Shown: positions 12,920 through 29,618 of the stretch, one piece after another
Position numbering within the stretch: the first letter of the stretch is position 1
Layout: the number at the start of each line of letters is the position of its first letter
Origin: a virus
Direction: 5' to 3' (one strand)
Virus record (IMG/VR): IMGVR_UViG_3300035689_000031
Span: 1 to 43,924 of that record
DNA: 43,924 bases
Program-made: the position numbers and the translations under genes
The notes under the pieces: generated by a model
Database searches by the model: none
What the model was told of the DNA's origin: nothing
Seen by the model: only the letters and a program-made list of their open reading frames with translations

Positions 12920-14531
12920 CATCGGCGAATTGGTTGTAAACCTCACGGCAAACTCCACAAAGTTGCAGTCCGCCCTGAAGTCCGCACAAAAACAGGTTGA
13001 GGTGTTTTCGGTGGCTGCCGGTGCTGCCGCTGTTGGTGCTGTGGCTCGCTTTATGCAAGTGGGCTCGGCACTAGATGATATGTCTCAGCGAACAGGCGTG
13101 GCTGCCAGCGAACTCTCAACGCTTGGATTCGCCGCAAAGATGACCGACACATCGCTTGAGGCCGTGCAAGGATCGCTGGTGAAGATGCAGCGATTCATGG
13201 GCGACGTGAGCGATGGTGGTGCCGCTGCTGTTGCGACACTCAGCCGGCTCGGCATGACCACCGAACAACTCAACGGCCTGACACCAGATCAGCAGTTCAA
13301 AGCCTTCGCTGAGGCTATCTCAAAAGTCGAAGATCCGACGTTAAAAATGAATTTGGCGATGGGTGTATTCGGCAAGTCCGCCGCTGAAATTCTGCCGCTG
13401 CTGAACGAAGGGGCCGACGGCATCGAGAAGTTTCAGAAAGAAGCGGAGAGGCTCGGGCTCGTCATGTCAGATGACATGGCAGCGTCAGCAGCAGCCGCAG
13501 GCGACGCGATTGATACGGTAATGATGGCGGCGAGCGCTGCAGCGGTGAAATTTGGTGCGGCCCTCGCCCCTGCCGTTACGATAGTCGCAAAGGTGCTGTC
13601 TGAGATCGTCGCATCAAGCCCGGGGTTGATTCAGGCATTTGCTGGAGGTGCTGTAGCGCTGGCCGCATTCGTGGGCGCTATGAAAGTCCTCAACGTCGCC
13701 ATGGACCTCTACGCGAAGCGGCAGGTGATCGTCTTGGCGCTCAGCGGCCCCAAAGGCTGGATCGCTCTCGCAGGTGCCGCAGTAATCGCAGGCGGGGCAA
13801 TCGCGGCGCTGACTAGTCAATTCGGCAGCTACAACACCGAACTTGCACAGGCCCAAAAAAGCCAGAAGGCGCTGGCTGAAGGCAACATGGGAGCCGCAGG
13901 CCCGGCCGCTGGCAGCACAGAGGCACAGAGTCGCCTTGTGTCCATGCAAGACGAACTCAGAGTCCTTCGCGGCGAACTCACGCAGTTCGATTTGCAGATG
14001 GAAAAACTGGCGCAGGCCGGCGCAACCGAACGCGAGATTAAGCAATTGCGATTTCTCGAAATGAACCGCAACCGAGTGCTTCGCCTGCAAGACGAGGAGC
14101 GCAAGAAGCAGGCCCTCATTGCCGACGAAATCGAACGCGCCGCGGCAGCCGCTGAACAGCAACAAAAGGCGATGCAGTCACGCGCTGAGTCCATCATCGA
14201 ATCCCTCAAAACGCCTGCCGATAAATTTCTTGACCGCCAATCGGAAATTCAGCAGCTGCAAGCAAAAGGCCTCCTGACAGACTCACAGGCAAGCCGTGCA
14301 ATCGACATGGCCCGCAAAGACATTCTCGGCGCCGGCGAGCAAGTGGCTGAAACGCAGCGACCGCAGGCAATGCAGGCCGGCTCACAGGAGGCATTCCGCG
14401 CAATCCTGCAGGCGATGGGCAAACAAGATCCGCAGGTGCAGGCTGTGAACAAGATGAACCAAAACATCGCAAAGAAACTCGACAGCGTTACCGACGCTAT
14501 CCTCACAATTCAAACGGCAGGTATCGCATGA
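12912..14531 (+). CDS. Tail tape measure protein
   Basis: 539 aa from the GTG at 12912, MANIGELVVNLTANSTKLQSAL, the usual start of phage tape measure proteins; a TTG at 12882 is the 5' limit of the frame. Central hydrophobic segments (about residues 235-320) could form the membrane-active region, and the C-terminal half is a long coiled coil rich in Glu, Gln and Arg. For a tape measure this is short, implying a tail of roughly 80 nm if about 1.5 angstrom per residue holds. It overlaps the chaperone frame and the next gene. Confidence 0.85.
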   Translation: MANIGELVVNLTANSTKLQSALKSAQKQVEVFSVAAGAAAVGAVARFMQVGSALDDMSQRTGVAASELSTLGFAAKMTDTSLEAVQGSLVKMQRFMGDVSDGGAAAVATLSRLGMTTEQLNGLTPDQQFKAFAEAISKVEDPTLKMNLAMGVFGKSAAEILPLLNEGADGIEKFQKEAERLGLVMSDDMAASAAAAGDAIDTVMMAASAAAVKFGAALAPAVTIVAKVLSEIVASSPGLIQAFAGGAVALAAFVGAMKVLNVAMDLYAKRQVIVLALSGPKGWIALAGAAVIAGGAIAALTSQFGSYNTELAQAQKSQKALAEGNMGAAGPAAGSTEAQSRLVSMQDELRVLRGELTQFDLQMEKLAQAGATEREIKQLRFLEMNRNRVLRLQDEERKKQALIADEIERAAAAAEQQQKAMQSRAESIIESLKTPADKFLDRQSEIQQLQAKGLLTDSQASRAIDMARKDILGAGEQVAETQRPQAMQAGSQEAFRAILQAMGKQDPQVQAVNKMNQNIAKKLDSVTDAILTIQTAGIA

Positions 14532-18345: not shown

Positions 18346-18808
18346 CCAGTGGGTGTCGAAATACGGTTCCACACTTCCCCTGCAGGTGCTTGAGATCGGC
18401 TCACTGAACATCAACGGCACCGCCCGTGTGCACTTCCCGAACGCTCGATGGCTTGGTATCGACCGGCAACGCGGACCGGGTGTTGACGTCGTCTGTGATT
18501 TCCTCGACTGGGAAGCAAACGCAGCGTTTGATGTTGTGGTATGCTGTGAGGTTCTGGAACACTCAAGCGTGTGGCGCGACATTGTCGGCAGGGTTAAGCC
18601 GCTATTGATGACTGGCGGGATATTTATCGGCACCTGCGCGGGACCGCTCAGACAGCCGCACAGTGCGATTGACGGTGGACCCCTGCGGCAGGGCGAGTAT
18701 TACAGCAACCTGACGGCCGGTGACCTGCTCGGTGAACTCCAAGCGGCTGGGTTCTGGCGAGTGCTGGTGCACGATACTGGGCACGATCTGCGATGGTGGG
18801 CGGCGTGA
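18329..18808 (+). CDS. SAM-dependent methyltransferase (class I)
   Basis: 159 aa from the GTG at 18329, with CAGGAGA upstream; earlier starts in the frame lie well inside the previous gene. The SAM-binding strand-loop is VLEIGSLNIN (20-29), the acidic ribose-binding end of strand 2 is LGIDRQRGPG, and a post-motif is FDVVVCCEVLEHSS. The C-terminus has a GGIFIGTCAGP strand. Coming after two sugar transferases, it may methylate a glycan. It ends in a GTGA overlap with the next frame. Confidence 0.75.
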   Translation: MHAEADQWVSKYGSTLPLQVLEIGSLNINGTARVHFPNARWLGIDRQRGPGVDVVCDFLDWEANAAFDVVVCCEVLEHSSVWRDIVGRVKPLLMTGGIFIGTCAGPLRQPHSAIDGGPLRQGEYYSNLTAGDLLGELQAAGFWRVLVHDTGHDLRWWAA

Positions 18809-19137
18809 GACTTGTAATCGCCGTGATCGTCTCTGCCTGTGCAATCGCAGTCCTGATCGACAGCCCCCGTCGCGAGCTGGACGCACAATTGCGTGCTGAC
18901 TGGCTGGAGTACCGGGAGCACGTCGGAAACCCAGCATTTCCCGCGACTTCTGAAAATTTTTCAGAATTCTTTTCAGACCACACTGGACACAAAACGATAA
19001 GGTGCTATACTTCACCTGTCGGACGCAAGGTGCGGAAGACAGCACAACTAAGCAAGGGGCTGAGAGATGAAGACTGTTACCGAAGCACAGGTTGGCGACG
19101 CTTTGTTTTGCACGCGATGCGTGGAAGACCACATTGA
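18805..19137 (+). CDS. Possible small membrane protein
   Basis: 110 aa from the GTG coupled to the methyltransferase stop. Residues 2-18 form a hydrophobic segment (LVIAVIVSACAIAVLI), followed by a charged region (SPRRELDAQLRADWLEYREH). The 3' third runs through the promoter at 18984-19011 and overlaps the next gene by 71 nt, so either the frame is overextended there or the gene and promoter overlap. A membrane-anchored accessory is possible. Moderate to low support. Confidence 0.4.
   Translation: MRLVIAVIVSACAIAVLIDSPRRELDAQLRADWLEYREHVGNPAFPATSENFSEFFSDHTGHKTIRCYTSPVGRKVRKTAQLSKGLRDEDCYRSTGWRRFVLHAMRGRPH
18984..19066 (+). promoter_or_regulatory. Promoter and shared leader, copy A
   Basis: -35 TGGACA (18984-18989), 16-nt spacer, -10 TATACT (19006-19011), then 13 nt to GCAAGGTGC (19025-19033). 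A second CAAGG lies in AGCAAGGGGC (19051-19060), the ribosome binding site of the ATG at 19067. The same layout recurs at 19432 and 34078. About 40 nt upstream of the -35 also resemble copy C, including an ATTCTTT segment. Confidence 0.75.
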
Positions 19138-19366
19138 CTTCGTTCTGGATGTTATGGCAGCGACGGACAAGGCAATCAAGGTTCACAACGCTGAGCGAAA
19201 CCTGACAGTGTGGATTCCGCGAAGCGCCCTGCAGGTGAACACTGCATTCAATCGGACGGCAAAGGACAGCCACAGCGTGAACTGCTGTTGGCACTGTGTG
19301 GCTGGCTGGTTCTGGACTAAAGCGAACCGCCAGCAGAAACTGGCACTGCATCTGATTTGTGGATGA
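19067..19366 (+). CDS. Small two-CxxC protein from leader copy A
   Basis: 99 aa. It has two CxxC pairs, CTRC at residues 15-18 and CWHC near residue 75, so it may bind zinc or undergo disulphide exchange. Between them lies a beta-rich, charged segment (DKAIKVHNAERNLTVWIPRS). No family is recognised. It has its own promoter and strong ribosome binding site and a GC-rich hairpin downstream, so it is a self-contained unit within an otherwise coupled genome, as seen for phage accessory (moron-type) genes. Confidence 0.65.
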   Translation: MKTVTEAQVGDALFCTRCVEDHIDFVLDVMAATDKAIKVHNAERNLTVWIPRSALQVNTAFNRTAKDSHSVNCCWHCVAGWFWTKANRQQKLALHLICG

Positions 19367-24397: not shown

Positions 24398-24615
24398 GCA
24401 TTGAAGTGAAGCCCGGGCGATGGCGGATGCGCGGCGGACAAATCGCAATTGTCGAAGACCGCGACGGTCATCGGCTGCATCCGTGGATCGGCCGCGACAG
24501 CAGCGGAGTGAGGTGCAGTTGGGGAGATCGCGGTGAGTGGTTCCTTCTCAGCACTCGGAGCGCATTTGACCTCGTCGAATACCTTGGGCCGGAACAACCA
24601 CAAGCAGCGTCTTGA
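24394..24615 (+). CDS. Small beta-rich protein, paralogue of the 25588 product
   Basis: 73 aa. It begins with a GRWRMRGGQIAIVEDRDG strand pair and ends AFDLVEYLGPEQ. The protein at 25588 shows the same outline, with GVYRRRNGKEALVW and LDIVAYIGPL, so the two look like paralogues. It ends at the -35 of the first pseudoknot-type RNA element. Function unknown. Confidence 0.6.
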   Translation: MSIEVKPGRWRMRGGQIAIVEDRDGHRLHPWIGRDSSGVRCSWGDRGEWFLLSTRSAFDLVEYLGPEQPQAAS

Positions 24616-24746
24616 CAATCCAAACTAACCTGCTACCCTGACCCCGTCGGCTAATGCGAGCGGCTGACGCAATATCAGAACTATCAGGCTAACGCCTGTT
24701 CAACCCGCCGGGGTGTGCTCGCATCACACTTCGAGCGGGTTTTTTC
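24612..24746 (+). ncRNA. Pseudoknot-terminator RNA element, copy 1
   Basis: Promoter TTGACA (24612-24617), 16 nt, TACCCT (24634-24639). After 14 nt, ATGCGAGC (24654-24661) pairs with GCTCGCAT (24717-24724). CAGGC/GCCTG (24685-24689, 24694-24698) forms a tetraloop hairpin. AACCCGC (24702-24708) pairs with GCGGGTT (24735-24741) and runs into six T. The first helix's 3' arm is inside the terminator loop, so the helices interleave. Copy 2 at 29177 has the same order and spacing with different paired bases. The predicted RNA is about 100 nt. It may act as an sRNA, or as an attenuator of the gene starting at 24760. Confidence 0.7.
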
Positions 24747-24759
24747 ATGGACGCATGGG

Positions 24760-24978
24760 ATGCGAAGACTCGATTGGAAACTGGTCTCTGCGATTACGAT
24801 TGACGCAATACATGATGGGTGGTCTTACACGATCACGAAGCAGCCTGACAAATGGACACTTTGCGTGCAGCCAATACCGGACCGCGGACCGGACTGGCGG
24901 AAGTGGTTCGAGACACGGTACCTGCAAGACGCAATGGCAATTGCGCAGGCGATGGCTGCTGGCGTGGATTTGATCTGA
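24760..24978 (+). CDS. Small Trp-containing protein after RNA element copy 1
   Basis: 72 aa from the ATG at 24760, 14 nt after the terminator T run. The pattern DGWSYTITKQPDKWTLCVQP followed by a helix (LQDAMAIAQAMAAG) recurs in the products at 35113, 34883 and 28863: two Trp-marked strands, then an Ala-rich helix. There is no strong ribosome binding site. Transcription would have to read through the terminator, so the RNA element may control it. Confidence 0.55.
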   Translation: MRRLDWKLVSAITIDAIHDGWSYTITKQPDKWTLCVQPIPDRGPDWRKWFETRYLQDAMAIAQAMAAGVDLI

Positions 24979-25105
24979 CAGCCCGGAGAGACGGGCGATT
25001 GATCGAACTCGGCAAGTCACGAGCTTTTGTGCCGCTTTGCGGGGACTGAGGTCCCTGGAGTAGCGAAGGCGAATTGCGGCGACTTGACAGCCCGGAGAGA
25101 CGGGC
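24976..25105 (+). repeat. Duplicated 21-nt hairpin with GGA near the loop
   Basis: A TGACAGCCCGGAGAGACGGG segment is present at 24976 and again at 25085, each ending in a further C. In each, GCCCG pairs with CGGGC around GAGAGA, leaving GGA at the loop edge. GGA in hairpin loops is a known CsrA-type recognition feature, and this phage has two CsrA-like proteins, but the functional link is inference. Between the copies, CCGC/GCGG (25032-25042) and GGGAC/GTCCC (25042-25055) form further small hairpins. Confidence 0.55.
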
Positions 25106-25130
25106 AATCTGACATCCCGCGGCGGAGATT

Positions 25131-25216
25131 GGGACCGCACGCGGAAGGCTCGCTGGTGGCGGCTGAGAGGCTGGATCTGGGGCGAGGGTAAACAACGCCA
25201 AAGACAACGGTGAGAG
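25131..25216 (+). repeat. Dispersed repeat R, copy 1
   Basis: An approximately 85-nt segment alignable with 29336-29426. Shared blocks include TCGCTGGTGG, AAACAACGC and GACAACGG followed by GAGAG; I estimate about three quarters identity by eye. It lies before the ERCC4 nuclease. It could be a decayed coding fragment or an intergenic repeat acquired from a host. Confidence 0.5.
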
Positions 25217-25232
25217 CGTCTGCCCGTTCACT

Positions 25233-25568
25233 GTGGTGATCGACACAAACGAACAGTATCCGTTTGCCTTCACGTCGATCCGCAACCGCGGCGGCGACGC
25301 TGTGCACGTGCCGACCATCACCCGCCCGCTCTACACCGTCGGCGGCGGAGACTACACGATTGACGGGATGGAGGATCTGATTCAACTGGAGCGCAAAGGA
25401 GACGACCTGCCGAGCAGTCTGGCACAAAGACGCGAGGCGTTCGAGGGCGAGATCCGGCGACTGTCTGAGGCGTGCGAATTTGCTGCGGTGATTGTGGAGC
25501 ATCCGTGGTCGTTCTTTTTGAGAGACGAACACGGGTACGGGATGAGCGGTAAAGCGATATTCATTTGA
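25233..25568 (+). CDS. ERCC4-type nuclease
   Basis: 111 aa. The XPF/ERCC4 core is clear: VIDTNEQYPF (Asp4, Glu7), YTVGGGDYTIDG (Gly-Asp-Tyr at 39-41) and LIQLERKGDDLPSSL (Glu53-Arg54-Lys55), the metal-binding set of this endonuclease fold. It ends shortly after the core, without a helix-hairpin-helix domain. GTG 25233 is the only usable start, although the frame is open 170 nt farther upstream and the residues PFTV before it look coding, so the true N-terminus may be a little longer via a rarer start. Likely role: cutting recombination or replication intermediates. Confidence 0.8.
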   Translation: MVIDTNEQYPFAFTSIRNRGGDAVHVPTITRPLYTVGGGDYTIDGMEDLIQLERKGDDLPSSLAQRREAFEGEIRRLSEACEFAAVIVEHPWSFFLRDEHGYGMSGKAIFI

Positions 25569-25587
25569 AAGAGGAGGACTGGCAATA

Positions 25588-25860
25588 ATGACAACCGAAT
25601 TCCGAATCGACAGGCCGGGCGTGTATCGACGACGCAATGGCAAAGAGGCTCTGGTTTGGCCGCGCCTATGCACCAGCGAATGGTGGAATGGAGAGGACGC
25701 AAACGAGCCGGCGGCGGGTGACACCTACCGCACTGATGGCCGACTAATTCATAGCCACAAGACACACTTAGACATCGTCGCCTACATTGGCCCGCTCCCC
25801 GCGGACATCATTCAGCGAATGCGTGAGGCGCTGGCGTTGGCAGAGGAGCCGCAACAATGA
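25588..25860 (+). CDS. Small beta-rich protein, paralogue of the 24394 product
   Basis: 90 aa. It shares with the 24394 product an opening strand pair (PGVYRRRNGKEALVWPRL) and the closing LDIVAYIGPL, with an inserted EWWNGEDANEP loop and a C-terminal helix (IIQRMREALALAEE). It has an AGAGGAGG-type ribosome binding site. Function unknown. It overlaps the next gene by ATGA. Confidence 0.6.
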   Translation: MTTEFRIDRPGVYRRRNGKEALVWPRLCTSEWWNGEDANEPAAGDTYRTDGRLIHSHKTHLDIVAYIGPLPADIIQRMREALALAEEPQQ

Positions 25861-26177
25861 CCTTTTCCAGTCACACACACGTCAAACGCACGCGCAAACC
25901 CTTCCGCTGCGTATGGTGTGGCGAGCAAATTGAGGCCGGCCAGTCCTGCGACATTCTCAGCGGCAAAACCGAATACGGCGACATGGGCACCGACAGGTAT
26001 CATCCCGAGTGCTTTGCGGCCCTGCGCACGTTAACCTATGACGAATGTGATTCATGGGAGTTTGGCGACTTCCTTCGCGGCTGCAAATGCGAGGCTGGGA
26101 CGGAGTGCAGATGCAAAACACGGGACACCGAAACAGCAATGAGGCATTTTGTTGCGGGTGATTTGGATTTGGCTTGA
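25857..26177 (+). CDS. Zinc-binding protein
   Basis: 106 aa. CVWC at residues 18-21 pairs with YHPECF, giving a C2HC-like site in a small treble-clef fold (RKPFRCVWCGEQIEAGQSC). A second Cys cluster, CKCEAGTECRCK, may bind another metal. The C-terminus is short and acidic. It could bind nucleic acid or a host protein. It is coupled to both neighbours. Confidence 0.6.
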   Translation: MTFSSHTHVKRTRKPFRCVWCGEQIEAGQSCDILSGKTEYGDMGTDRYHPECFAALRTLTYDECDSWEFGDFLRGCKCEAGTECRCKTRDTETAMRHFVAGDLDLA

Positions 26178-26206
26178 ACAATGAGCGAAACGCAGGAGTA
26201 CATGAG

Positions 26207-26464
26207 ATGACCCCGCCAAACGGACCACCGCCACCAATCCCAGACTGGGCACAAGACGCCCCGCGGCCTACGTCACCGCCACCGCCGAGACGCACAGACC
26301 GCCCGCGAGTGATTCGCAGCGTACAGCAGGCCGTCGCTATCCATGAGGCGCTGTGTGGTCTCGCAAACGCAGTCCGCCGGCTGAAGGAAGCAGGGTTGTC
26401 ACGCGAGGAAATCGACGAGGCGTATCAGGCTGAGATGCAGGCGAGTTGGGACTATCAACCATGA
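26207..26464 (+). CDS. Pro-rich small protein
   Basis: 85 aa from the ATG at 26207, with GCAGGAG upstream; the TTG at 26174 is less likely. The first 35 residues are mostly proline and look disordered, followed by two helices (AVAIHEALCGLANAVRRLKE, EEIDEAYQAEMQ). It overlaps the methyltransferase by 4 nt. Function unknown. Confidence 0.55.
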   Translation: MTPPNGPPPPIPDWAQDAPRPTSPPPPRRTDRPRVIRSVQQAVAIHEALCGLANAVRRLKEAGLSREEIDEAYQAEMQASWDYQP

Positions 26465-27660
26465 AAACCATCGAAGCAAACAAATGCAAAATCTTCATCG
26501 GCGACTGCGTTGAAGCGATGTCCGCCCTACCTGCGGACTCCATCGACAGCATCGTCACAGACCCGCCTTACGGTCTGTCATTCATGGGCAAGGCATGGGA
26601 TAAGGGAGTCCCTGCTGTCGAAGTCTGGCAGGAGTGCTTACGAGTCCTGAAGCCCGGCGGGCATTTGCTCGCATTCGCTGGCACTCGCACGCAACACCGA
26701 ATGGCGGTGAGGATTGAGGATGCGGGGTTTGAGATCCGGGATATGATCGCGTGGGTGTACGGCTCGGGGTTTAGCAAGTCGATGGACGTAACGAAAGCGA
26801 TTGACGCGCAGGACGCAGTACAGGAACAGCAGGCGAGGCGTTACCGATTCACGGCGTGGGTTCGGTCTACTGGCGTTACATCGAAGCAAATCGACGAGGC
26901 CACGCAAACCAATATGGGCGGGCATTACACGACAGCAGCGAGCCAGCCTGCAATAATGACCCGCGAGCATCTGGAAGCCTGCCGGCATTTATTGGGCGAG
27001 ATTCCGGAATGGGTGGAGCAGGAATGCGACATTCGGAGTGTTGAAAGTCATGCGCTTAAAAGCCGCGATGTAATCAGTAAAGTATATAAAGGCTCCTCTC
27101 CGCTTCCTAATAACCATGCGGGTCACTGGAAAGACAAACAAGAAGATGGTGAATTTAACATCACTGCCCCTGCAACCGAAGCCGCGAAGCAGTGGCAAGG
27201 CTGGGGCACATCTGTCCGCCCAGCACTTGAACCGATCACTTGGGCACGAAAACCACTGATTGGAACAGTTGCCGAAAACCTACTGCAACACCGTACCGGC
27301 GCCGTGAATGTTGATGGCTGCAAAGTGGACGGCCTACGCTTGCCGGCAAACTTCATCCACGATGGCTCAGAGGAAGCCCGCGACCTGCTCGGCTCAGCGG
27401 ACCGCTATTTCTACTGCGCCAAAGCCGACGCCTCCGAACGCCGCAACAGCAAACACCCTACGGTCAAACCGCTTGCCCTGATGCGTTACCTGTGCCGTTT
27501 AGTCTGTCCACCCGGTGGAATTGTCTTGGATCCGTTCTGCGGCTCGGGAACGACGCTGGAGGCCGCGAGGCTTGAAGGATTCCAGGCCATTGGGTGCGAG
27601 TTAAACGCGGAGTACATTCAGGACTGCAAAGAACGACTGGCGCAGGGGGTGTTGTTTTGA
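26461..27660 (+). CDS. DNA N6-adenine/N4-cytosine methyltransferase (DPPY type)
   Basis: 399 aa. The catalytic DPPY is at 34-37, and the SAM-binding DPFCGSGTT near the C-terminus (FCGSGTT at 359-365); this order, catalytic motif first, is the beta-class arrangement. DPPY usually goes with N6-adenine methylation. A roughly 200-residue insert between the motifs would hold the target recognition domain. It could protect phage DNA from host restriction. The ATG at 26461 overlaps the upstream stop. This is the second DNA methyltransferase in the window and, unlike the C5 enzyme, it is intact. Confidence 0.85.
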   Translation: MKTIEANKCKIFIGDCVEAMSALPADSIDSIVTDPPYGLSFMGKAWDKGVPAVEVWQECLRVLKPGGHLLAFAGTRTQHRMAVRIEDAGFEIRDMIAWVYGSGFSKSMDVTKAIDAQDAVQEQQARRYRFTAWVRSTGVTSKQIDEATQTNMGGHYTTAASQPAIMTREHLEACRHLLGEIPEWVEQECDIRSVESHALKSRDVISKVYKGSSPLPNNHAGHWKDKQEDGEFNITAPATEAAKQWQGWGTSVRPALEPITWARKPLIGTVAENLLQHRTGAVNVDGCKVDGLRLPANFIHDGSEEARDLLGSADRYFYCAKADASERRNSKHPTVKPLALMRYLCRLVCPPGGIVLDPFCGSGTTLEAARLEGFQAIGCELNAEYIQDCKERLAQGVLF

Positions 27661-27748
27661 ACTGTCACGAAATCCTTGACGACTGCCCAAAAATACCAAA
27701 ATCTTTCGTCACTTGGTTCGCGATCCGGGTAGTTCTCCAGATAGAGCC

Positions 27749-27802
27749 GCTGACAAATCGCTGACAAATCGCTGAAACGGTGCTGAAACGGTGCAACCGT
27801 TT
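27749..27802 (+). repeat. Tandem 11-mers ending in a palindrome
   Basis: Two exact copies of GCTGACAAATC are followed by two exact copies of GCTGAAACGGT, all sharing GCTGA, at an 11-nt period, i.e. about one helical turn. The last copy forms one arm of AAACGGT-GCA-ACCGTTT. Helical phasing suggests binding of a protein on one DNA face. Confidence 0.8.
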
Positions 27803-27868
27803 TCGGGAATTCGAATCAATCCATCGTCACTTTGCAGGTGTTTCGCGTAGCTCTCCAGATAGGCGGCG

Positions 27869-27905
27869 CACAAATCTTGTGGCAATGCCACAAATCTTGT
27901 GGCAA
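27869..27905 (+). repeat. Two tandem operator-like palindromes
   Basis: CACAAATCTTGTGGCAA occurs at 27869-27885 and again at 27889-27905 (20-nt period). The second copy is a perfect inverted repeat, TGCCACAA and TTGTGGCA around ATC (27886-27904); the first lacks the outermost pairs. Two adjacent dyads resemble repressor operators. Confidence 0.8.
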
Positions 27906-27975
27906 CCGCGCGCATTGGCGTTGATTCGCAGCATAAGTAACAACGGGACGGGCCTTTCTTTTCAAGGAGACCAAC

Positions 27976-28299
27976 ATGGTAGCAATCGCGCATCATCTGG
28001 AAGCCCACAGGGCACGCTGCGCAGCTCTGCAGGAACTCTTCGAGCGGCAGTCAAAGCACGTCGAAAAGCACTTCCGTGAGCAGGGGCTGGATTATTTCGA
28101 CAAGGTGGCGGCAGCCGCTGAACATCTCGGGAAAGCAGCAGAAGGCCGTGAGCCGGACGATGTTTCCGAGGCGGTGCTGGTGGCCTTCGGCGTCAGTCTA
28201 CTCGCTGAGATCGGCGGCATCGCCTGTAGTCTGGCGTGGGCGGGCTACGAAATGACATCACCCGAGGAACAGGGAGGCAACAATGGGGCAGAAGTATGA
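27976..28299 (+). CDS. Helical protein downstream of the repeat region
   Basis: 107 aa from an ATG with CAAGGAGA upstream. Nearly all helical: HHLEAHRARCAALQELFERQ, then AAAAEHLGKAAEG, then a less polar stretch (VLVAFGVSLLAEIGGIACSL) that might touch membrane or pack in a bundle. No family is recognised. Its position right behind the operator-like region makes it the gene most likely controlled by those sites. Confidence 0.6.
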   Translation: MVAIAHHLEAHRARCAALQELFERQSKHVEKHFREQGLDYFDKVAAAAEHLGKAAEGREPDDVSEAVLVAFGVSLLAEIGGIACSLAWAGYEMTSPEEQGGNNGAEV

Positions 28300-28480
28300 C
28301 ATGGGCACTTGCCTTTCCTGTGGCACGATCCGCAAGGTTTTGCACCGCGAATGGATCAGGGCAGCCCGCCCGCGATGCCTGGCCTGTGGTGGGGCTCTGG
28401 AAGCGTCACACAGGGCATCTGGCGAGCACGCGAAGCATGAAGCCGGCAAGGCGGAACGGCAGCAGTCAAGAAATCGGTGA
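28283..28480 (+). CDS. Small zinc-ribbon protein
   Basis: 65 aa. CLSC (residues 10-13) and CLAC about 20 residues later form a C4 zinc ribbon; the C-terminal 25 residues are basic and Ala/Glu-rich. A strong GGGAGG precedes the ATG, which lies 17 nt inside the previous gene. A nucleic-acid-binding role is plausible. Confidence 0.6.
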   Translation: MGQKYDMGTCLSCGTIRKVLHREWIRAARPRCLACGGALEASHRASGEHAKHEAGKAERQQSRNR

Positions 28481-28489
28481 CGACTGCTC

Positions 28490-28575
28490 TTGACAATCCA
28501 CACCAACCGTCCCTGATTATTTTCAGAACAAATTCCATTCAGCCTGTTGACACGTCGTCCGCCCGCCGACACACT
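28490..28575 (+). promoter_or_regulatory. Promoter region upstream of the 28636 gene
   Basis: Two -35-like TTGACA hexamers lie at 28490-28495 and 28547-28552. The second has CACACT at 28570-28575 after 17 nt. The first is followed by ATCCACACCAACC, similar to the promoter of RNA element copy 1, but lacks a clear -10. The rest of the 155-nt gap shows nothing else. Confidence 0.5.
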
Positions 28576-28635
28576 AAGGCACCGCAGGGCAACATTTTCG
28601 GCTTAACACCACGAAACTCAGGCTCAGGAAAAAAC

Positions 28636-28779
28636 ATGAACTACGTTGTCACTCGCTTCGGCCAGATAATGAGCAACAGTTTGGCTGTGGAGCAGGAAGA
28701 ATTAGCAGCCGCAAAGCCACAAGGTGATGCTGAATGGGCTGAGTGGTACGAGCGTTTGGCTGCCTTCTGGAGCAAATAG
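28636..28779 (+). CDS. Small 47-residue protein
   Basis: From the ATG at 28636, preceded by CAGGAAAAAAC. The product has a short strand start (NYVVTRFGQIMSNSLAVEQE) and a helix with WAEWYERLAAFW. It is too short for family assignment. The promoter at 28547 and the start context support translation. An overlapping frame is open but looks like a shadow. Confidence 0.45.
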   Translation: MNYVVTRFGQIMSNSLAVEQEELAAAKPQGDAEWAEWYERLAAFWSK

Positions 28780-28862
28780 ACCAGAGATGGTTGGGGCGAT
28801 GGGTCTGGAAGCGCTCGGCACGCTGCAGAAAAGGCACGGCAATACAGAAGGGGGATTTCGTG

Positions 28863-29180
28863 ATGCAATGGCACTACGAATCTGTTGGTGTTTGGGTGGC
28901 GAAATCAGGGATTACTGCAGACGATGCCCTGCTGTTCTGGCGCGTAAAAATCCAAAAAACCGGCCTTTTTTCTTGCAGTCAATCTGACAATGAATTGGAT
29001 GCCAGTGAAGCACAATTTGCCACCGCGCAGGAGGCGATGGACGCATGTGCAACAAAAGAGAGTTTTTTAATGAACGCACACAACAGATGCGCTTGCGGGA
29101 ATGACTTGCACCCCGGAGTTGACGATAGACTTTGCCGGATTTGCTACTCAAAACAGCGCGCATCCGTAGACTGCTCTTGA
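28863..29180 (+). CDS. Two-part small protein with C-terminal zinc ribbon
   Basis: 105 aa from the ATG at 28863 (GGGGG upstream). The first half matches the Trp-marked strand plus helix pattern of the 24760 and 35113 products (WHYESVGVWVAK, FWRVKIQKTGLFSC, FATAQEAMDACA). The second half holds RCACGNDLHPG and CRIC, a C4 zinc ribbon. It looks like a fusion of two small domains. It ends at the promoter of RNA element copy 2. Confidence 0.55.
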   Translation: MQWHYESVGVWVAKSGITADDALLFWRVKIQKTGLFSCSQSDNELDASEAQFATAQEAMDACATKESFLMNAHNRCACGNDLHPGVDDRLCRICYSKQRASVDCS

Positions 29181-29318
29181 CATCCAGCGAAAACTATCTA
29201 CTCTGACACTGCCGACGGGAAGAGAGACCGCTGGCAACCTACAATCAGACTCGTCGGGCTCTTGCCCGTCTCAACCCGCCTTCGGTTGCTCTCTTCAGCC
29301 GCAGGCGGGTTTTTTTTG
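29177..29318 (+). ncRNA. Pseudoknot-terminator RNA element, copy 2
   Basis: Promoter TTGACA (29177-29182), 16 nt, TACTCT (29199-29204). After 14 nt, GAAGAGAG (29219-29226) pairs with CTCTCTTC (29289-29296). CGGGC/GCCCG (29255-29259, 29264-29268) makes a tetraloop hairpin. AACCCGCC (29273-29280) pairs with GGCGGGTT (29304-29311), leading into eight T. The interval between the second helix's 5' arm and the first helix's 3' arm is 8 nt, as in copy 1. The first and hairpin stems differ in sequence from copy 1 but remain paired, evidence that the structure is selected. No gene starts within 300 nt downstream, so here the element behaves like a free-standing RNA. Confidence 0.75.
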
Positions 29319-29335
29319 CGCCTGCTGCCGGCCTA

Positions 29336-29426
29336 GGGATCGGTAGCAGAGGCGTCGCTGGTGGGGCTCGCAAGGCTCGATGGTGGGCGACGAAAAACAA
29401 CGCACCTGACAACGGCGAGAGGCCCC
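29336..29426 (+). repeat. Dispersed repeat R, copy 2
   Basis: Counterpart of 25131-25216; begins GGGATCGG and contains TCGCTGGTGG, AAACAACGC and GACAACGGCGAGAG. It lies 18 nt after the terminator of RNA element copy 2. Frames through it are open in places but without ribosome binding sites. Confidence 0.5.
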
Positions 29427-29513
29427 GGGATGACGGCGGCAGATTCGCCTGCTACCTTCTGCTTCCTCTCTGGAGGGGGTAGGGGGTGGCATGGCTCCAG
29501 ACCCGCGAACAAC

Positions 29514-29576
29514 AGCAGCAGTATGCTGCTAAGGACAAAGACAGGGCGCAGCCTGTCATATCTAAGAGCAACTCTT
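29514..29576 (+). other. Three consecutive short hairpins
   Basis: AGCAGCA/TGCTGCT (29514-29530, loop GTA), GACAGG/CCTGTC (29540-29557) and AAGAG/CTCTT (29564-29576, loop CAA) follow each other in the leader of the gene at 29619. The whole stretch 29319-29618 has no convincing gene. The hairpins may shape an mRNA leader. Confidence 0.45.
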
Positions 29577-29618
29577 CGGAAGTCCTGAATAGTTCATCGA
29601 CAAAACGAAAGGCAAAAA

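Follow-up and report, generated by a model that had tools for sequence, protein, structure and literature searches.

Two copies of a kissing-loop element

The window analysed here is the whole 43.9-kb virus record IMGVR_UViG_3300035689_000031. It contains two copies of an element in which a promoter is followed by a hairpin (H1), a small second hairpin (H2) and an intrinsic terminator hairpin (H3), in the same order in both copies (Table 1). The loop of H1 is complementary to the entire loop of H3, and the two are predicted to form a loop-loop, or kissing, complex. Statistics on the sequences show selection on both hairpins H1 and H3 and on the kiss between them, and both the structure and its placement as a leader in front of genes are well supported.

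A sequence-only reading of this DNA had described a shared promoter with a 16-nucleotide (nt) spacer and 14 nt between the -10 box and the first arm of a helix, followed by a tetraloop hairpin of 5 base pairs (bp), AACCCGC, the second arm, GCGGGTT and a T run. All of these are present in both copies, and the tetraloop hairpin, corresponding to H2, indeed differs on both strands. The 8-nt gap proposed after AACCCGC exists in copy 1; in copy 2 it measures 9 nt. The arms of the proposed first helix are complementary in both copies, but they form a 7-bp loop-loop pairing instead of an 8-bp helix, as an eighth pair would be in competition with the closing pair of H3. That reading had overlooked H1, whose loop bears the first arm, as well as the stem which places the second arm within the 7-nt H3 loop. 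The arms do interleave as it had suggested, in the form of a loop-loop pseudoknot.

The minimum free energies (MFE) of the window copies are -42.8 kcal/mol for copy 1 and -47.4 kcal/mol for copy 2 (z-scores of -3.2 and -4.0), and none of their dinucleotide shuffles folds as well. The H3 stems of 15–16 bp followed by six to eight T residues have the form of intrinsic terminators, as do those of the catalogued relatives.

Loop complementarity and covariation

A kissing-hairpin scan, which looks for a hairpin loop complementary to the loop of a later terminator hairpin, detects the two copies in the window at a score of 36.3 each, plus one weak match, and none of 80 block-shuffled window strands reaches a score of at least 36. 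Across all fetched DNA, 92 matches score at least 28.5, compared with none after block shuffling and 13 after reversal of the sequence (redundant copies counted). Furthermore, complementary H1 and H3 loops occur in 13 of 30 distinct candidates collected with a pattern that does not require kissing, where 0.35 are expected; off-diagonal combinations of loops match in 10 of 870 cases. In this comparison, near-duplicates were removed and at least six shared complementary bases were demanded within the predicted loops plus one flanking base.

MAFFT misaligns the loops, whether all subtypes are pooled or the Aeromonas subtype is taken; therefore two alignments were counted separately, with the kiss treated as a pseudoknot. 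Alignment A3 comprises 13 sequences with 6-nt loops, alignment A4 five sequences of the window subtype with 7-nt loops. In A3, 95.5% of cells are paired, the kissing helix is paired throughout (100%), and 18 pairs are doubly changed overall, with a covariation of 0.428 as opposed to 0.042–0.103 when slid. Its loops follow GGNNAG/CTNNCC, and variation is limited to the two central pairs. In A4, where the four relatives are all pattern matches for which kissing was not demanded, 99.4% of cells are paired, the kissing helix is again 100% paired, and double changes affect six of its seven pairs. Neither H2, which is invariant, nor H3, which has one variable pair changed on one side only, shows a double change; the H1 stem of copy 1 shows both-sided changes in three of eight pairs across the relatives. 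A direct example is found 5′ of related genes (MSKHTP...) in the phages 2_D05 and 4_D05, where GTAGAG/CTCTAC in the former corresponds to GTGGAG/CTCCAC in the latter. The pairing thus consists of two closed hairpin loops joined by 6–7 contiguous Watson–Crick pairs that are kept by covariation. The earlier suggestion of selection on structure through compensatory changes is supported by these homologues, and the outcome that was to refute it, a lack of homologues with conserved pairing, did not occur.

Table 1. Parts of the two element copies in the window and the gene behind copy 1.
Feature	Start	End	Strand	Description	Basis
Copy 1 promoter	24612	24639	+	TTGACA 24612-24617, 16-nt spacer, TACCCT (-10) 24634-24639	Sequence
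Copy 1 H1	24645	24669	+	8 bp; 9-nt loop AATGCGAGC (24653-24661)	Fold
Copy 1 kissing arm, H1	24654	24660	+	ATGCGAG in H1 loop; partner 24718-24724	Alignment A4
Copy 1 H2	24685	24698	+	CAGGC-TAAC-GCCTG	MFE fold forms inner four pairs; invariant in A4
Copy 1 H3	24702	24741	+	Terminator hairpin, 16 bp, one bulge; AACCCGC...GCGGGTT	Fold, A4
Copy 1 kissing arm, H3	24718	24724	+	CTCGCAT, entire 7-nt H3 loop	Fold, A4
Copy 1 T run	24740	24745	+	Intrinsic terminator	Sequence
Copy 1 downstream gene	24760	24978	+	72 amino acids, early-region, MRRLDWKLVSA...; start 18 nt after H3	
Copy 2 promoter	29177	29204	+	TTGACA 29177-29182, 16-nt spacer, TACTCT (-10) 29199-29204	Sequence
Copy 2 H1	29210	29236	+	8 bp including a 1x1 mismatch; loop GAAGAGAGA (29219-29227)	Fold
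Copy 2 kissing arm, H1	29220	29226	+	AAGAGAG in H1 loop; partner 29289-29295	Fold
Copy 2 H2	29255	29268	+	CGGGC-TCTT-GCCCG	Fold
Copy 2 H3	29273	29311	+	Terminator hairpin, 15 bp; AACCCGC...GCGGGTT	Fold
Copy 2 kissing arm, H3	29289	29295	+	CTCTCTT, entire 7-nt H3 loop	Fold
Copy 2 T run	29310	29317	+	T run	Sequence

Distribution among phages

The same layout is found in about 25 distinct phages, reached through patterns blind to kissing and through neighbouring proteins used as anchors. The IMG/VR pattern TTGACA..AACCCGC..GCGGGTTTT, which does not require kissing, matches 42 contigs, and further members come from a second pattern covering the region 3′ of the terminator and from reading whole contigs. 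Among cultured phages, the element is carried by the Aeromonas phages vB_AsaM-56, 2_D05, 4_D05, 4_4512, phiA005, 4_L372X and Avpd1, which were reached through Aeromonas records and HNH proteins. The terminator stem sequence in the first scan is partly imposed by the search pattern. The protein-anchored L179 has the terminator base AACCCAC/GTGGGTT and the likewise protein-anchored phiA005 and 4_L372X have AAGCCC/GGGCTT, each with the kiss present. In Avpd1, which was reached by DNA similarity, the base reads AACCACC/GGTGGTT. Because these stems differ, the terminator stem can be said to change compensatorily as well.

Three likely members were missed by the strict scan and passed a looser loop test: L010 1689-1818 (CGGTAA/TTACCG), L012 1696-1833 (TGTCGGG/CCCGACA) and L021 6575-6709 (CGGACA/TGTCCG). 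In two further promoter-terminator units (L023 206-327 and L040 1262-1397), 10–12 nt of the 5′ part are perfectly complementary to the inside of the terminator hairpin; they have no small H1 loop and perhaps represent a related terminator/antiterminator design. A scan of genome contigs gave 22 matches without a clear host signal, including one plausible member in a Polaromonas metagenome-assembled genome (L058). No real homologue was returned by blastn against INPHARED for copy 1 of the window and an element of the L034 type. The pattern GAAACCCGC..GCGGGTTTTTT retrieved mostly ordinary terminators without a kiss, which served as controls, and GTTAGGTG..TTTTTTATTG retrieved unrelated structures outside Aeromonas phages.

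Placement in front of genes

Of 28 distinct kissing terminators, 20 are followed within 25 nt of the T run by a ribosome-binding site and the start of an open reading frame (ORF) with 45 codons or more, as opposed to seven of 113 other terminators from the same DNA (p = 1.8e-12). In the measured cases the first gene begins approximately 17–19 nt past H3. There is therefore no space for a second promoter, and any messenger RNA of the gene would contain H3 and have read through it, from which we infer a conditional terminator. As the element lies directly 5′ of the ribosome-binding site of a gene, it is best read as a leader, more than as a free RNA of about 100 nt. Copy 1 of the window has the anatomy of an attenuator, with the terminator between promoter and ribosome-binding site; copy 2 does not. 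Copy 2 instead lies approximately 300 nt 5′ of a gene cluster with a DUF3102 protein and a DnaB-like helicase, an exception to the tight adjacency. This stretch up to the next gene (29318-29618) contains no convincing gene and possibly an extra hairpin, GCCTGCTGCCGG...GGTAGCAGAGGC.

The genes behind the element are of various kinds, most of them early-type, including HNH endonucleases, a ParB-like protein and a primosomal-type protein (L042), in addition to the families phrog_4652, phrog_5931 and phrog_1376, whose function is unknown. The 72-amino-acid gene behind copy 1 has no family match; relatives of it are located behind the element in L011, L014 and L031. No element is present upstream of the phrog_4652 relatives in Medea1, LESphi2 and wV8, nor upstream of the phrog_5931 relative in phiAH14a. 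At the former position, LESphi2 (OQ594955; L183 2528-3000) and wV8 (NC_012749; L184 1680-2000) carry long non-coding tandem pentamers, NNGG(C/T), interrupted by hairpins, and in wV8 the repeat DR_4 is annotated at this stretch.

Attenuation through a leader peptide was considered and rejected, as there is no consistent short ORF. By reading, the lone short ATG frame of copy 1 has no ribosome-binding site, and the ATG is part of the variable loop, being missing from relatives such as L011.

Some elements appear to be mobile. Compared with 2_D05, phage 4_D05 has an extra stretch at approximately 18391-19225, which starts where its element 2 starts and holds this element together with its HNH gene; a tRNA-like sequence, also included, closes the insertion (L119 ~19120-19230). 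In vB_AsaM-56, the HNH gene and its element occupy a site between terminase and portal that holds another small gene in 2_D05 and 4_D05. Leader and HNH endonuclease thus appear to move together, as one cassette.

Several elements can occur in one phage: two each in the window, vB_AsaM-56, 4_D05 and L075, and three in G004. Element 1 of vB_AsaM-56 lies at 13357-13457. Within a phage, the computed energies of cognate loop duplexes range from -4.4 to -8.9 kcal/mol, and non-cognate combinations are no better than -2.9 kcal/mol. The H1 arm of copy 2, for instance, pairs with its own partner at -7.4 kcal/mol and with the loop of copy 1 at -2.9 kcal/mol. Such mutual non-matching is suggestive of insulation.

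Relation to known systems

Rfam 15 at gathering thresholds, including C4 antisense RNA, pRNA and riboswitches, gives no match in the window, vB_AsaM-56 or the phiA005 stretch, and relaxed thresholds add nothing beyond one ssnA match elsewhere, attributable to chance (E = 3). A literature search, with most subscription journals outside its coverage, retrieved no description of the element. The earlier impression that no named RNA has this layout is in line with both searches.

Several known RNAs share parts of the design. In pT181-type attenuators and in 5′ untranslated-region attenuators that release small RNAs (sRNAs), a terminator precedes the ribosome-binding site and RNA-RNA pairing of hairpin loops sets read-through. 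As proposed below, the element would resemble pT181-type attenuators in both respects; in pT181, however, the partner is a distinct antisense RNA encoded on the opposite strand, whereas here both loops lie on one transcript and must covary. Diverging loops define specificity in ColE1 RNAI/RNAII and HIV TAR/TAR*, where the partners are separate molecules, in contrast to the element, in which one partner is the terminator hairpin of the same RNA. In the phage leader RNAs known as P4 CI RNA and P1/P7 C4 antisense RNA, premature termination is governed by hairpin segments that are complementary. The likeness lies in these segments, but the element has no Rfam match and occurs in many copies before varied genes with freely varying loops. 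The phi29 pRNA, a part of the packaging motor, also carries two mutually complementary loops on one RNA; unlike the element, it is single-copy and has neither terminator nor leader position, and again no Rfam match links the two. The nearest principle is RNA-controlled attenuation combined with RNAI/RNAII-like kissing, the novelty being that both loops belong to one transcript, with the terminator capped by one of the two.

The elements form a phage RNA family that is undescribed, is scattered widely and covaries unusually cleanly, and since members exist in cultured Aeromonas phages it is immediately testable. If the kiss sets termination, protein-free gene gating by interchangeable keys of 6–7 nt would be a new principle of control as well as a natural supply of orthogonal genetic parts. 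Terminators just 5′ of phage genes may conceal RNA switches. Orthogonal attenuator variants have been described (PMC3753616).

Proposed mechanism and alternatives

The reading preferred here is a new family of phage leader or attenuator RNAs in which kissing between H1 and H3 sets the use of the terminator; acceptance and doubt are evenly balanced. A sigma-70-type promoter would start the transcript a few nt before H1, and the polymerase would next produce H2 and the terminator H3, with the T run ending just 5′ of the ribosome-binding site of the first gene. As the covariation suggests, the 6–7 nt loop of H1 would pair with the entire 6–7 nt loop of H3. Within the same nascent RNA this may occur once the H3 loop has left the polymerase, before the base of H3 closes. 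The kiss would then set the frequency of termination and, through it, the output of the operon, and the variable loops would act as private addresses which, judging from the computed energies, could prevent cross-pairing of neighbouring elements. A wider claim, possible if on the doubtful side, is that of a wholly new category of RNA-only conditional terminators, in which a 5′ hairpin kisses the emerging terminator loop with its private loop key. Such self-addressed terminators would precede several early genes and mobile HNH cassettes, mutually insulated and protein-free, with control acting in cis or, as a dose sensor, in trans.

Crude estimates of geometry compare the reach of the H1–H3 linker with a coaxial H1–kiss–H3 stack. 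In nearly all elements with long linkers the reach is approximately 108–186 Å, where 74–99 Å are needed; L019, which has no predicted H2, is borderline (102 vs. 116 Å). The Aeromonas elements have short linkers and a bulge of 3–4 nt in H1, which could serve as a hinge. The geometry is compatible with kissing in cis and leaves room for trans. In the kissing complexes of TAR/TAR* and ColE1 RNAI/RNAII, loops of 6–7 nt are fully paired and both stems remain closed. Since both paired loops of the element likewise lie in closed hairpins, the kiss need not disrupt the terminator stem.

Several points weigh against kiss-dependent termination in a leader. H3 need not open for the kiss, so that the effect on termination could be small and of either sign, and the short Aeromonas linkers make intramolecular kissing demanding. 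No gene begins within 25 nt of the T run in copy 2 of the window or in L058, L037, L166 and L151, and L171 contains an element-less relative of the gene behind copy 1. The differences between loops within a phage could partly be drift. Furthermore, transcription start, termination, read-through and kissing are themselves predictions.

Among the alternatives, a kiss in trans is unlikely yet deserves serious consideration: the short terminated RNA would accumulate and pair through its H1 and H3 loops with later nascent leaders, or dimerise, resulting in dose-dependent feedback on the same promoter, and the different loops would define incompatibility groups, comparable with those of plasmid copy control or of P4/P1-type RNA immunity. 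The loops are indeed complementary as a pair and non-matching among the elements of one phage, promoter and terminator together would yield abundant short RNA, and a straight cis kiss is disfavoured by the short Aeromonas linkers. Where the linker permits, however, as in all measured long-linker elements except L019, a tethered partner should outcompete a free one at normal concentrations. It is improbable that the element is a stable stand-alone sRNA acting on host targets, with the kiss shielding its 5′ and 3′ ends from RNases and gene proximity reflecting phage compactness. H1 begins a few nt past the predicted start site, the RNA ends with H3, folding is strong, and copy 2 has no adjacent gene start, all of which would suit such an RNA; yet placement 5′ of a ribosome-binding site and start is far more frequent than for other terminators of these loci, and the would-be target-binding loops are engaged with each other and vary freely.

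A put-like element, whose folded nascent RNA remains on the polymerase and confers resistance to downstream terminators, is quite improbable. HK022 putRNA, two stem-loops of approximately 70 nt that bind the zinc-binding domain of the polymerase beta′ subunit, is likewise a structured leader RNA directly behind phage early promoters and acts on termination (PMC9378689). By comparison of layouts the element does not qualify as a put: putRNA has no described built-in terminator and loop-loop pairing is not mentioned for it (PMC9378689), whereas here the terminator is integral and no fixed polymerase-contact sequence is seen. A chance or phylogenetic artefact, namely ordinary terminators with fortuitous complementarity, has a very nearly negligible probability. 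AACCCGC...GCGGGTT terminators are common and many pattern matches lack a kiss, but the excess of complementary loops among the 30 candidates, the contrast of real with shuffled and reversed DNA in the redundant set, and the confinement of double changes in A4 to the loops all argue against it.

Other genes in the window

Positions 26446-27660 encode a DNA methyltransferase of the N6/N4 type (Pfam PF01555), and an ORF at 500-1342 resembles a C5 DNA methylase by motif only.

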